DNA of 64,000 bases from Gelidibacter salicanalis. Its GTDB lineage: Bacteria > Bacteroidota > Bacteroidia > Flavobacteriales > Flavobacteriaceae. The stretch is taken from the NCBI RefSeq assembly GCF_007997285.1, contig NZ_VORX01000003.1, positions 1 through 64,000 of the forward strand, given 5' to 3'. The position numbers and the translations under genes are program-made. The notes under the pieces are model-generated. The model had not been told where the DNA came from. It did not search any database and saw only the letters and a list, made by a program, of their open reading frames with translations. Position 1 is the stretch's first letter; each line of letters opens with the position of its first letter. This document shows, piece after piece, positions 14,872 through 23,668 of this stretch.

Positions 14872-15339
14872 ATGACTCTAAAAAATGATCAGATTCCCAC
14901 GTCTTTAAAAGACTTTCTTTTAGATAAAGGCTACATCAAGGTAAAACTTAAATTGACCAAGACCAATCATTTTGAAATTAAGGCGACCATAAATGGTGTC
15001 AAAGGCTTGTTCATTTTAGATACAGGCGCATCCTATTCGTGCGTGGGCTTTGAAGGTGTTGAAACCTTCAAATTGACTGCTAAAGATTCAGACGTTAAAG
15101 CTGCCGGTGCGGGCGCTACAGATATGCTCACCCAACTTTCCAAGAAAAATAAGATCAAAATCGGGAAATGGAAAAAAGATAAAGTCGCCTTGGTGCTTTT
15201 TAACCTCACCCACGTGAATACCGCCCTACTACATCATAATTCGCAACCCGTAGATGGCATTATAGGTGCTGACATTTTAAAAAAAGCAAAAGCTGTAATT
15301 GACTATGAGAAGAATAATGTGTATTTAAAAATGCCATAA
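14872..15339 (+). CDS. Retropepsin-like aspartic protease
   Basis: The 155-residue protein has a single pepsin-like lobe: the catalytic motif FILDTGASYSCVG (about residues 51-63) and the downstream DGIIGADILKKAKAVIDY segment (about 128-145) typical of clan AA retropepsin-like proteins. Such enzymes work as homodimers. There is no signal peptide or membrane span, so a cytoplasmic location is inferred, unlike periplasmic relatives. The target is unknown. It lies alone, 58 nt upstream of the response regulator. Confidence 0.82.
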   Translation: MTLKNDQIPTSLKDFLLDKGYIKVKLKLTKTNHFEIKATINGVKGLFILDTGASYSCVGFEGVETFKLTAKDSDVKAAGAGATDMLTQLSKKNKIKIGKWKKDKVALVLFNLTHVNTALLHHNSQPVDGIIGADILKKAKAVIDYEKNNVYLKMP

Positions 15340-15397
15340 GCGGGGTGTTTTTTTATGGCAAAGTACTACCTTTAAGATCCCTAACCATAAATAGCCA

Positions 15398-16021
15398 ATG
15401 CAAGCCTCTATACTCATAGCAGACGATCACCCTCTCATTCTTAAAGGTCTGACCGATTTTTTGGTGGAAAAAAATTACAATCTTGCTGGAAGTGCCACTA
15501 ATGGTAAGGAAGCGCTCGAAATGATTGTTTCACAACAACCGGACATTGCTATTCTCGATATTCAAATGCCCTATTTGACGGGTCTACAAATTGCTCAAAA
15601 ATGTAAAGATTTAAAACTACACACAAAAATTGTACTGATAACTTTTGAAAATGATGAAGCCGTCTACAATCAGGCAAAAGACTTAGAAATTTACGGCTAT
15701 GTACTGAAAGAATTTGCACTTGTAGAAATAGAAAATTGTATCGCTGCAGTTTTAAAAGGCAACTCCTATTTTAGTCCTGAACTGATCGAATATCTAGAGA
15801 TTAATGAAGTACCGGAAGCGTTAGAAACCCTCACCCCTATGGAGAGAGAGGTGCTCAGGCTGATTGCTCAGAATAAAACTGCTAAAGAAATTGGAAACAT
15901 TCTTTTTACCTCCAGCAGAACCGTTGAGAAACATAAAAGCCATCTCATTAAAAAACTCGACTTAGAGTCCAAGTCAAGCAGTTTGGCGCTTTATGCTAAA
16001 GAAAACGAAGCCTTCCTGTAA
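15398..16021 (+). CDS. Orphan NarL/FixJ-family response regulator
   Basis: The 207-residue protein has an N-terminal receiver domain with acidic pocket DD (residues 9-10), phosphoacceptor D54 (AILDIQMP) and the Thr/Lys switch (LITFEN, then LKEFA), and a C-terminal LuxR-type helix-turn-helix (about residues 143-195: LTPMEREVLRLIAQNKTAKEI, then SSRTVEKHKSHLIKKL). No histidine kinase gene adjoins it. The stop codon sits 1-2 nt before the first of three 7-2-7 inverted heptamers that overlap downstream promoters, the geometry bound by NarL-type regulators, so it is the natural candidate for controlling them. Confidence 0.93.
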   Translation: MQASILIADDHPLILKGLTDFLVEKNYNLAGSATNGKEALEMIVSQQPDIAILDIQMPYLTGLQIAQKCKDLKLHTKIVLITFENDEAVYNQAKDLEIYGYVLKEFALVEIENCIAAVLKGNSYFSPELIEYLEINEVPEALETLTPMEREVLRLIAQNKTAKEIGNILFTSSRTVEKHKSHLIKKLDLESKSSSLALYAKENEAFL

Positions 16022-16022
16022 A

Positions 16023-16071
16023 AATACGTAGTTCTACGTATTGTGGGTTACGCTCTTAATGGCGACCTTTA
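16023..16071 (+). promoter_or_regulatory. Box 1: TACGTAG-TT-CTACGTA operator overlapping a promoter
   Basis: The palindrome (16023-16042) holds two inverted 7-mers spaced by 2 nt. Its last bases give the TTG (16041-16043) of a -33 element, and GACCTTTA (16064-16071) stands at the -7 position after a 20-nt spacer. Boxes 2 and 3 have identical spacing. The predicted start is near 16076. Confidence 0.75.
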
Positions 16072-16156
16072 TGCTGCTATTAATCATTCTCATAAGAGAA
16101 CCAAGAAGAGCTCTATTTGCTTATTTCATCTAAAGCTTTTTAAAACAGACATACTC

Positions 16157-16258
16157 ATGAAATCGCAATCCAGCTTTACGAATATTTCTTTCGCCTTAGG
16201 ATTGATTCTGACTTCTATGTTGGTAATCTTATTAAATATTCTGGTTGCTTTTTTATAA
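16157..16258 (+). CDS. 33-residue single-span membrane microprotein
   Basis: ATG 16157 opens a 33-codon frame: a polar N terminus (MKSQSSFTN) followed by one continuous hydrophobic stretch of about 24 residues to the C terminus (ending ILVAFL). It lies about 80 nt downstream of the start predicted for box 1 and ends 20 nt before a strong terminator, so it fits a one-gene transcript. A longer in-frame start (16043) lies upstream of the predicted transcript start and is not credible. I do not recognise a family. Its pattern resembles the 36-residue protein behind box 3. Confidence 0.6.
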   Translation: MKSQSSFTNISFALGLILTSMLVILLNILVAFL

Positions 16259-16278
16259 TCAGATAATTTTCAGTCAAC

Positions 16279-16310
16279 AAGCGCATTCTCCATCAGAATG
16301 CGCTTTTTTT
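16279..16310 (+). terminator. Terminator of the box 1 transcript
   Basis: AAGCGCATTCT pairs perfectly with AGAATGCGCTT (11 bp) around CCATC, followed by seven T. Confidence 0.93.
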
Positions 16311-16338
16311 ACACTTAAATCTTACAAATACCCTTAAA

Positions 16339-16387
16339 AATACGTAGTTCTACGTATTGTATACCACCCAAATAATGACGAAATTTA
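16339..16387 (+). promoter_or_regulatory. Box 2: TACGTAG-TT-CTACGTA operator overlapping a promoter
   Basis: The palindrome (16339-16358) is identical to box 1. TTG at 16357-16359, a 20-nt spacer and GAAATTTA at 16380-16387 reproduce the same promoter geometry. After the -7 box both unit 1 and unit 2 carry TGCTATTAAT at the same distance. Confidence 0.75.
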
Positions 16388-16391
16388 CAAT

Positions 16392-16461
16392 GCTATTAAT
16401 TCTTAGGGGAATTATTTTATAGAGCTCTGGATTGTCATTGATTCAGGGCTCTATTTTTTTT
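16392..16461 (+). ncRNA. Predicted small RNA, about 70 nt
   Basis: Transcription from box 2 should start near 16392 and end at the hairpin 16421-16453 (TAGAGCTCTG paired with CAGGGCTCTA, one wobble) followed by eight T. The RNA would begin with a small hairpin (TAATTC/GAATTA) and has no credible start codon; the only ATG (16390) lies at or before the predicted 5' end and opens ten codons. This is a prediction from promoter and terminator signals only. Confidence 0.45.
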
Positions 16462-16479
16462 GCAGCTTGGCTACCTAAA

Positions 16480-16528
16480 AATACGTAATTCTACGTATTG
16501 TTCAGTGTCACTCTATGAGATAAATTTA
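16480..16528 (+). promoter_or_regulatory. Box 3: TACGTAA-TT-CTACGTA operator overlapping a promoter
   Basis: The palindrome (16480-16499) has one change from boxes 1 and 2 (G to A at 16488). TTG 16498-16500, a 20-nt spacer and TAAATTTA 16521-16528 keep the spacing exactly. Predicted start near 16533. Confidence 0.75.
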
Positions 16529-16623
16529 CGTCTTCAGCTCAACCAGGTCGATACTCATCAATTAGTTTATTACACTAGCCGCGTATGGACTAAAACACAC
16601 CAGTCATAAAAATTGCACTTATC

Positions 16624-16734
16624 ATGGAAAACCAAACTAAAAAAATCAACAGAACCCTCATCATTACGTTGATTGTTAGCGCTGTATTAATTATTACCGC
16701 CAATATAATAGTTACCTTCTTCTATACACCATAG
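16624..16734 (+). CDS. 36-residue single-span membrane microprotein
   Basis: ATG 16624 opens 36 codons: a polar, basic N terminus (MENQTKKINR) followed by one span of about 20 residues and a short tail (FFYTP). Positive charges before the span predict an N-in orientation. It is preceded by a leader of about 90 nt from box 3 and followed after 12 nt by a terminator. It is too short for usual gene callers and I recognise no family. It and the 33-residue protein probably belong to one regulon. Confidence 0.6.
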   Translation: MENQTKKINRTLIITLIVSAVLIITANIIVTFFYTP

Positions 16735-16745
16735 ACTACCAAGCA

Positions 16746-16778
16746 AAAAGGGGCGCTTTATTACAGAGCACCCCTTTT
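16746..16778. terminator. Bidirectional terminator between box 3 unit and sucB
   Basis: AAAAGGGG pairs with CCCCTTTT, with a further GCT/AGC inside, flanked by T-rich sequence on both sides. It can serve the plus-strand microprotein and the minus-strand sucAB genes. Confidence 0.8.
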
Positions 16779-16805
16779 ATGATTAAAATAGTTTATACTC
16801 TAAAC

Positions 16806-18077
16806 TTATAACTCTAAAGCTCTCTTTACATCATTATCCATAAGCAATTCTGTCGGATTTTCTAAAGCTTCCTTAATAACTACCAAGAATCCTACACTTT
16901 CCTTTCCATCAATAATTCTGTGGTCATAAGATACGGCCAGGTACATAATTGGTCTGATTTCAACATGTCCATCTATAGCTACTGGACGTTCCACAATATT
17001 GTGCATTCCTAAAATTGCACTTTGTGGTGGATTGATAATTGGGGTAGACAACATACTTCCAAATACACCACCATTGGAAATCGTAAATGTCCCACCTGTC
17101 ATTTCATCAACCGTAATTTGACCATCGCGTGCTCTAATTGCTAAACGCTTTACTTCAGACTCAACGCCTCTAAAGGTTAAGTTCTCAGCATTTCTGATGA
17201 CCGGAACCATCAAACCTTTAGGTCCTGATACCGCGATACTGATATCACAGAAATCGAAACTGATCATTTCCTGACCATCAATCATAGAGTTTACTGCAGG
17301 ATATTCTTTTAATGCTCTTACTGCTGCAAGAGTAAAGAAACTCATAAAGCCTAAACCAACGCCGTGCTTGCTTTTGAAGGTTTCCTTATATTCTTCACGT
17401 AATTTAAAAATTTCAGTCATGTCAACCTCATTAAACGTGGTCAACATAGCGGTTTCGTTTTTAGCTGATACCAAACGCTCTGCAACTTTACGACGCAACA
17501 TGGATAATCTGGAACGAGATTCACCACGTTTCCCACCCGTTGGCGTTCCCATTGATGGTACCGCTTTAACGGCATCCTCTTTTGTGATACGTCCATCTCT
17601 TCCTGAACCACTAACGTCTGAAGCAGACATGTTCTTTTCAGCTAATACTTTTTTAGCTGCGGGACTTGCCACACCTGAAGCGTACGTTTTTTGGGAAGGA
17701 TTTTCCTGTTTCTTAGAGTCTTCCTTATTTGGAGTTTCCTTTTGCTCTTTCGCTAATTCTTTTTCAACATCTTTATCTCCTGAACCTTCATCGCCTGTCG
17801 ACTCAGATTTTTTAGAATCTGAATCACCACCAGGTTTTTCAGCTGCAGTATCAATTAAACACACTACTTCACCAACGGCAACAGCATCACCTTCTTCTGC
17901 CTTTAAGGTTATAATTCCGCTGGCTTCAGCAGGAAGCTCTAAAGTTGCTTTATCACTATCTACCTCAGCAATAGCCTGATCTTTTTCTACATAATCGCCA
18001 TCTGCAACTAACCAAGCTGCAATTTCTACTTCTGTAATGGACTCTCCTGGTGAAGGAACTTTCATTTCTAAAATCAT
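16806..18077 (-). CDS. sucB: 2-oxoglutarate dehydrogenase E2, dihydrolipoamide succinyltransferase
   Basis: Core enzyme of the 2-oxoglutarate dehydrogenase complex of the TCA cycle, transferring the succinyl group from lipoamide to CoA. The 423-residue protein has one lipoyl domain with the modified Lys in [11 protein letters not shown] (about residues 41-51), a charged Glu/Lys/Ser linker (about 80-130), the peripheral subunit-binding domain ([11 protein letters not shown], then [11 protein letters not shown], about 138-170) and the acyltransferase domain with the active-site [12 protein letters not shown] near residue 390. It follows sucA by 71 nt on the same strand. Confidence 0.96.
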
Positions 18078-23050: not shown

Positions 23051-23668
23051 ATGAGAGAAAAAATTATACATAGAGCTACGGAGCTCTTTTTGACCCTTGG
23101 TTTTAAAAGTGTGACGATGGATGATATCGCCAATGAATTAGGCATTTCCAAAAAAACGATCTACGTACATTTTGAAAATAAAACCCGTCTGATTGAAGCG
23201 GCAACCTTCTCAGTGTTAGATAATGTATGTAGCGGAATTGATCATATTTCAGAGTCGGCGGTCAACTCTATTGAAGAATTGTACGAGATTAAAATGTACG
23301 TCATGACCTATTTAAGGAATGAAAAAACGTCACCCCAGCACCAACTGAAAAAATACTACCCACAAATCTACCAACGGTTACAGGTTAAGCAATTCGAAAA
23401 AATGCAAGCATCCGTACAGGACAGCATCCAAAGAGGTGTTAATGAGGGGCTTTTTAGAAGCACTATTGACGTCGATTTTATTTCGCGCATGTATTTTAAC
23501 GGGATGTCAGGTATTCGCGACGAACATATTTTTCCACAGGATCAATTCACCATCGAATATTTGATGGAAAGTTATCTCGAATATCATTTGAGGGCCATTA
23601 CCACGGAGAGTGGCTTATCAGTCTTAAAACAATTTATCAACAATCAATTAGAGCCTAATGACATATAA
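23051..23668 (+). CDS. TetR-family transcriptional regulator of the efflux operon
   Basis: The 205-residue protein begins with a TetR helix-turn-helix: REKIIHRATELFLTLGFKSV, then TMDDIANELGISKKTIYVHF (about residues 20-42), and has a variable helical ligand domain. It overlaps the tolC gene by 11 nt and so leads the pump operon, which it probably represses until a toxic compound binds. A longer frame begins at 22907 but lies upstream of the promoter; ATG 23051 is 9 nt behind the -7 box. Confidence 0.92.
   Translation: MREKIIHRATELFLTLGFKSVTMDDIANELGISKKTIYVHFENKTRLIEAATFSVLDNVCSGIDHISESAVNSIEELYEIKMYVMTYLRNEKTSPQHQLKKYYPQIYQRLQVKQFEKMQASVQDSIQRGVNEGLFRSTIDVDFISRMYFNGMSGIRDEHIFPQDQFTIEYLMESYLEYHLRAITTESGLSVLKQFINNQLEPNDI

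Follow-up and report, generated by a model that had tools for sequence, protein, structure and literature searches.

The three promoters behind an orphan NarL-type response regulator gene of Gelidibacter salicanalis are probably the output of a circuit in which a kinase-less activator drives sibling small RNAs (sRNAs) together with small membrane proteins, working like streptococcal CiaR and its csRNAs. The array lies in a 64,000-nt stretch of contig NZ_VORX01000003.1 (the window), and the genome it comes from, here called the own genome (G000), comprises 3.78 Mb in 24 contigs. The proposal is built on sequence comparison, which establishes the box palindrome, its fixed spacing to the promoter, its linkage to the regulator, an RNA family with a conserved terminator, and coding conservation of the small protein S3. 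In the proposed circuit, a regulator dimer would bind TACGT-N6-ACGTA boxes centred ~41-44 nt upstream of the transcription starts, over the -33 region, which would be a class II activator position, and would switch on the three promoters directly behind its own gene, with starts predicted at ~16076, 16392 and 16533. Unit 1 would yield a divergent sRNA whose transcription continues into the gene of a one-helix membrane protein of 33 aa, unit 2 an sRNA of ~70 nt, and unit 3 a related 36-aa membrane protein. The regulator might be phosphorylated by a non-cognate donor. As to function, we infer that the sRNA acts in trans, base-pairing via its 5' region, and that the small proteins feed back at the membrane. 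The ancestral circuit was likely kinase, regulator, one box and one small membrane protein; the kinase would have been lost in place and the boxes multiplied together with the RNAs.

The regulator gene (15398..16021, + strand) encodes a 207-aa NarL/FixJ-type response regulator with Response_reg (2.5e-24) and GerE (2.4e-13) domains and no kinase beside it, as an earlier reading made from the sequence only had stated. The closest solved structure is DesR, with NarL among the matches, and the nearest named regulator, from Gelidibacter algens, is 82% identical. The stop codon occupies 16019-16021; the heptamer of box 1 begins 3 nt on, and the extended AATACGTAG 1 nt on. The 16-bp palindrome is present three times within 480 bp in near-identical copies on the + strand. 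Box 1 (16025..16040), which overlaps the -33 region of promoter 1, and box 2 (16341..16356) both read TACGTAGTTCTACGTA, and box 3 (16482..16497) reads TACGTAATTCTACGTA, with a single change, so that the three palindromes described by the sequence-only reading were confirmed at 16025, 16341 and 16482. Directly 3' of each box stands TTG (16041-43, 16357-59 and 16498-500), followed after 20 nt by the -7 box: GACCTTTA at 16064..16071, 23 nt 3' of box 1, GAAATTTA at 16380..16387, and TAAATTTA at 16521..16528, all on the + strand. The identical spacing and gap-free alignment that had been claimed hold at all three promoters. With up to three mismatches allowed, the 64 kb contained 5 box matches against 0.90 expected, a number reached by 0/100 shuffles; these are the three boxes, one match overlapping box 3, and one at 23067. 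Genome-wide, TACGTANNNNTACGTA occurs at four places, the three window boxes and a site on contig 15 of the own genome that lacks a -7 box at the required distance. A whole-genome search for the box joined to its promoter, a check proposed along with the first description of the array, found three exact matches, all in 0.5 kb of the window, and no exact site beyond them. At up to two mismatches, the own genome gave 12+7 matches against 14+15 for the reversed-pattern control, with no further regulon site above the control.

Spacing was then counted at 88 regulator loci (45 unnamed, 40 of the 80 named, and 3 added later), which became 85 when duplicates were removed, close relatives remaining. 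Where a -7-like octamer lay within 48 nt of a box, the distance was exactly 23 nt for 141/163 octamers at the 85 distinct loci. At least one box-promoter was present in 79/85 loci and, by the rule used, absent from 6/85; the pairing of regulator and box thus extends to relatives, and the comparison of sequences gives strong support to the regulator-box link. Orphan-type loci, defined by the lack of a kinase motif within 1.5 kb upstream, a rule that may misplace L168 and one of L093, L096 and L166, carried one (15 loci), two (25), three (18) or four (2) box-promoters. Kinase loci with a box-promoter carried exactly one each (19 loci).

Conservation was counted at a fixed spacing of 23 and with another overlap rule, giving 132 orphan-type promoters as against 127 in the spacing count. 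The -33 TTG was T in 132/132, T in 116/132 and G in 75/132 of these, and the G was present in 4/19 kinase loci. The claim that the palindrome ends in the TTG of a -33 element therefore stands for the three window promoters and does not carry over to relatives: because conservation of the TTG is partial, and the palindrome runs on into its two T's, the box is better described as lying over the -33 region than as ending in a fixed TTG. Perfect 7-2-7 palindromes accounted for 80/132 orphan-type and 6/19 kinase-locus boxes; the consensus is AaATACGTAgaa.TACGTATTg at orphan-type loci and AtTTACGTGTtt.cACGTATTt at kinase loci, with the outer TAC and GTA almost invariant in both groups. This comparison supports the 7-2-7 layout first seen in the window, and in length and outer TAC...GTA the putative box agrees with the 7-2-7 NarL site TACCCCTAAAGGGGTA given in a passage of PMC4549865. 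At L087 and L173 both arms have changed together (TACGCA...TGCGTA). The inner six bases were identical in 54/100 within-locus pairs as against 798/6921 between-locus pairs, and this higher agreement indicates that boxes within a locus were duplicated or homogenised. Box position 6, which is A at orphan-type and G at kinase loci, was also compared with the regulator residues for covariation, and no clear pairing was seen on inspecting the alignment by eye.

Might the palindrome instead be an RNA hairpin, the terminator of the upstream gene, and no protein site at all? Algibacter-type loci do have a T run after the box, and a wobble pair survives the frequent change of A12 to G12. However, terminator hairpins already precede boxes 2 and 3, the window boxes have no T run after them, and the spacing to the -7 box is fixed at 23 nt; we regard this explanation as extremely improbable. 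For a protein-binding box, the centre falls at -43.5 if the start is the G of GCTATTAAT, and at -41.5 if the start is two bases earlier; -41.5 is the usual class II activator position. From the position of the box, and from nothing else, we infer activation rather than repression. It is unlikely that the regulator represses the three promoters. A dimer bound over the -33 region could block RNA polymerase, and the window's promoters do have the TTG, but the -33 G is often absent (counts above) while the box and the -7 box are kept, as for activator-dependent promoters, and the spacing between the two is rigid. Nor does it seem at all probable that some other regulator binds the boxes, the neighbouring one being incidental: the box-promoter sits behind the regulator in 79/85 loci and all three exact sites of the own genome are found here. 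The boxes of genome G047 are kept without the regulator, as would fit another binder, but G327, from the same genus, keeps it. Paralogous regulators elsewhere (L121, L124, L195) have the same box nearby, which would also fit.

The regulon was initially pictured as compact, a regulator plus three short transcription units. The three promoters and the absence of a further exact genomic site agree with that picture; the units are not just short ones, however, since they encode members of a conserved small-RNA family as well as one-helix membrane proteins that are homologous to each other. The canonical RNA, ~70 nt, is that of unit 2 (16392..16461, +), scored at 69.1 bits (E 2.8e-8) by R1, our model of the small RNA, whose E-values are rough because of a short calibration. 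Its predicted fold has an unpaired 5' GCUAU, a UAGG-loop hairpin, a terminator hairpin and a U run, with a z of -5.3 (0/200 shuffles as stable); of the nine constant bases, it leaves only the first five unpaired. The divergent copy of unit 1 (16076..16145, +; locus L065) has a GCUAUUAAU start, a small hairpin and a weak terminator, and was scored by R1 at 34.6 bits (E 0.0013); its fold was no better than those of shuffles (z -0.52). Relatives often show, downstream of the -7 box, GCTATTAAT and then a short hairpin, an A-rich region and a terminator. Alignment A1 holds 31/33 RNAs, selected on GCTATTAAT with window unit 1 and L029 left out, and in these 31 copies 10/13 pairs of the terminator stem had both sides changed in at least one copy. 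A set of 97 distinct copies was picked by GCTATTAAT, a choice that makes the first nine bases constant. These bases were unpaired in the predicted fold of 65/97, CTTAGGG was present in the first 30 nt of 45/97, and 92/97 had a terminator-like end; the hairpin region averaged -2.9 kcal/mol against -0.9 for shuffles, and no conserved ORF was noted by eye. The unpaired 5' bases may act as a pairing seed. Several similar RNAs from promoters sharing one site were found in relatives, the window having one canonical and one divergent copy.

At E <= 0.01, R1 had a single match in the own genome, unit 2 at 16392-16456, and matched 47/148 genomes, own included; 6 of the 47 lie outside Flavobacteriaceae, and their weak matches (E 1.1e-4 to 3.6e-3) may be false. 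At E <= 1e-4, 76/299 Flavobacteriaceae genomes and 63/236 genera were positive. About a quarter of the family's sampled genomes thus have the small RNA, and its link to a regulator whose DNA site can be read makes it a tractable entry to RNA regulation in Flavobacteriaceae, in which promoter code, RNA and regulator are each open to deletion and direct measurement. Locus searches with R1 covered 50/114 loci in one round and 58/80 named loci in another; the 58 named regulator loci gave 50 matches at E <= 1e-3, every one of them on the same strand as the regulator. In a count not selected for the RNA, GCTATTAAT came within 16 nt downstream of the box-promoter in 92/127 orphan-type cases and 0/19 at kinase loci. 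The regulator was present at E <= 1e-45 in 32/47 R1-positive genomes; among the other 15, the RNA match was weak (1.1e-4 or worse) in 12 and strong in three. Every Rfam match listed for window positions 15300-17000 and six related loci was below its gathering score, sau-6072, which overlaps unit 2, reaching 20 bits against 50. A search for targets of the RNA hairpin brought up none that is conserved: its 12-nt complement was found at the RNA itself in 9/9 genus genomes, with 3 stray matches against 2 for the control. An extra copy with a box-like promoter was observed at L097 (10897-10967, genome G079), ~8 kb from the main array, and at the kinase-type locus L084 (2387-2454, genome G084) an R1 match of 44.1 bits lies behind the small ORF with no box before it.

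We also weighed the view that the RNA is a 5' leader with a transcription attenuator that sets the level of read-through into the gene for the small membrane protein, with no free sRNA being made. The arrangement of unit 1, and of the last unit of many arrays, where an RNA with a terminator precedes a same-strand small ORF, is what such a leader would look like, but no such ORF stands between the unit 2 RNA and the next promoter, the RNA copy at L111 ends 8 nt before a convergent gene, and at kinase loci no RNA element intervenes between the box-promoter and the small ORF that it leads to. A leader of this kind is quite unlikely, and a free sRNA is preferred.

Several known systems resemble the array. 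Sibling sRNAs are the subject of PMC6262261. CiaR of streptococci drives several short terminator-ended csRNAs, two to six genes per genome, with comC as a known csRNA target (PMC3091779, PMC4507080, PMC4295557), and CiaR can be highly active without its kinase (PMC4295557), a precedent for regulator activity without a cognate kinase. In those descriptions, as in the circuit proposed here, one response regulator serves several short terminator-ended sRNAs, a likeness of arrangement. The array here differs in having a palindrome, in standing directly behind the regulator gene, and in encoding small membrane proteins in its units as well. CiaR belongs to the OmpR type, and its sites are direct repeats. 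LuxO, a sigma-54 activator, drives sibling Qrr sRNAs that add up and depend on Hfq; one regulator and sibling sRNAs are in common with our case, unlike the sigma-54 mode of activation and Hfq, for which the own genome has no match. GacA, which is NarL/FixJ-type, activates the sibling sRNAs RsmX/Y/Z and CsrB via an upstream palindrome, and these RNAs titrate CsrA. Regulator type, sibling sRNAs and upstream palindrome are all shared with the present array; the own genome, in contrast, has no CsrA match (PF02599, E <= 0.001; found in 3/14 control genomes). It is decidedly unlikely that the RNAs here titrate an RNA-binding protein as RsmX/Y/Z do CsrA, with each copy adding to dosage. Several copies per locus and a recurrent purine-rich hairpin (CTTAGGG, 45/97 copies) would suit titration, but each RNA has a single such hairpin, and the own genome has no match to any of the RNA-binding partners searched (Hfq, CsrA and RRM_1). 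In Bacteroides, the multicopy FopS sRNAs have an unpaired 5' stretch and a terminator and associate with RbpB (passages of PMC11697453). FopS is thus, on that description, a multicopy Bacteroidota sRNA of similar build; the same passages do not tie it to a single response regulator, unlike the RNA here. The FopS model RF04319 matched at 16271-16343 on the minus strand alone, with 25 bits against a gathering score of 56, and had no match in six related loci at E <= 0.1. The partner of FopS is RbpB, whereas the own genome gave no RRM_1 match. Rfp18 of Flavobacterium psychrophilum is a conserved sRNA thought to act in trans, with pairing predicted for its third stem-loop (a passage of PMC9723704); the RNA here has two hairpins. 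No report of a regulator-RNA array like this one was found in the literature, leaving aside most subscription papers and all bioRxiv preprints.

Small one-helix membrane proteins are encoded in units 1 and 3. S1 (33 aa; 16157..16258, +) has tblastn homologues in relatives and is followed by an intrinsic terminator (16271..16312, +) with a hairpin and U run (z -7.0). S3 (36 aa; 16624..16734, +), which is similar and apparently homologous to S1, has a counterpart in 9/9 genus members and is also followed by an intrinsic terminator (16746..16780, +; z -4.5). In the 24-codon core of S3, the nine genus members showed 330 synonymous against 218 non-synonymous changes, compared with 74 against 464 in the +1 frame, and third codon positions changed most; the synonymous excess in frame and the variable third positions support translation of S3. 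The small proteins matched no Pfam family, and no NCBIfam model above cut-off. A small one-helix ORF was listed behind the regulator in 36/45 loci; the listing is a selected one, requiring length, hydropathy and an N[IL] motif, and its row for L071 at 908 is spurious, lying within the opposite odhB gene. Pairing between the RNA and the leader of the small ORF, a feature of type I toxin-antitoxin systems, reached a z of -2 or lower in 7/71 pairs, among them the unit-2 RNA with the S3 leader in 3/9 genus members, the rest being near shuffles. The window pairs gave z -1.9 (unit 1 RNA with S1), 0.3, 1.2 and 1.7. Control of the small ORFs by RNA pairing is thus not supported in the window and is inconsistent across relatives (71 pairs).

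The orphan state of the regulator looks like a derived one, since in relatives a TPR-histidine kinase gene still separates the regulator from the same upstream neighbour. In the window the upstream neighbour is a retropepsin-like aspartyl protease gene (14872..15339, +; Asp_protease_2 1.4e-11), which is conserved at that place in 33/45 regulator loci. In 12/45 loci a TPR-HisKA_3-HATPase kinase ends just before the regulator instead; domain scans of such neighbours were made on one kinase and one retropepsin-like protein. Exactly one box-promoter was found in 10/12 of these kinase loci, and 7/12 appear in the small-ORF listing. The downstream gene was named odhB (sucB) by eye in 41/45. Genomes that retain the kinase show the order retropepsin, kinase, regulator (G020, G034, G046, G048, G049). 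The kinase profile, run on 88 genomes, matched nothing in the own genome at E <= 1e-55; it scored 1e-187 to 1e-242 for regulator-paired kinases, four of the five scored being rows of the profile itself, and ~1e-104 to 1e-121 for full-length paralogues. In the unrooted regulator tree one branch parts the kinase and orphan-type groups with support of 100/97. Gene order, absence of the profile from the own genome and the split in the tree are most simply read as loss of the kinase in place. That a protease was exchanged for the kinase was considered and rejected, as the retropepsin-like gene occurs in 55/88 genomes and, in those kinase genomes that were seen, stands upstream of the kinase. The receiver residues D9, D10, D54, T82 and K104 are invariant in 10 regulators and kept, on inspection, in 45, which suggests that phosphorylation still matters. 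A regulator retained after loss of its kinase is a testable case of two-component system rewiring. At L100 (3359-4996) a CHAT-domain protein is encoded upstream of the retropepsin-like gene, with relatives in 8/45 loci.

Regulator and RNA do not always occur together. In the complete genome G047 (L113, 4450-4563) the regulator is missing from between the retropepsin-like gene and box 1, and none was found at E <= 1e-45 in that genome; boxes, RNA and small ORF are kept. The regulator is kept in G327 (L238). Strong RNA matches without a regulator at E <= 1e-45 were also seen in G055 (82% complete) and G058 (88% complete), the regulator ORF of G058 ending at 111 aa. Other regulators, too, are accompanied by the RNA. 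G013 (L110) has two RNA copies with the palindrome TACGG-N4-CCGTA, located behind a pair of near-identical regulator-like genes, and a TPR/HATPase protein is encoded ahead of the first gene; Pfam found no Response_reg in these genes and one weak DUF5932 match below cut-off. In G024 (L111) a copy follows a PAS-GerE (PAS-LuxR) protein and has the palindrome TACTCAATTTGAGTA. The palindromes of L110 and L111 end 34-35 nt before GCTATTAAT, the distance in the window being 35. At L112 (G041) a copy has no adjacent regulator recognised by eye. One RNA family may thus be a common output of several LuxR/NarL-type regulators, each using a palindrome of its own placed equally far ahead of the RNA, so that different signals would feed one RNA regulon; on the main branch the RNA output would have expanded where the kinase was lost, turning a kinase-gated switch for a small membrane protein into a kinase-less RNA array. 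We offer this wider scheme tentatively, its chances being somewhat below even.

The box itself is found more widely. It also lies no more than 90 nt behind deeper regulator paralogues in Algoriphagus, Aquimarina, Flagellimonas, Membranihabitans, Flavobacterium, Lutibacter and Portibacter; R1 had no match at E <= 1e-3 at these loci, and other genes follow the box there. In Aquimarina (L184, 137-409; L185, 88-357 after the regulator stop), the box behind a paralogous regulator precedes a ~90-aa ORF that by eye resembles a bare type IX secretion C-terminal domain. At loci L187, L190 and L192 of Flagellimonas/Muricauda, inspection by eye showed a box, or a palindrome like it, ahead of an uncharacterised ORF, with a sigma-factor-like gene and a larger ORF further on. 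A paralogous kinase/NarL-type regulator pair with TACGTAG boxes downstream of the regulator was seen at L121 and L124 (genomes G036 and G035), and at L124 one TACGTAG box precedes what by eye is a secreted-protein-like gene.
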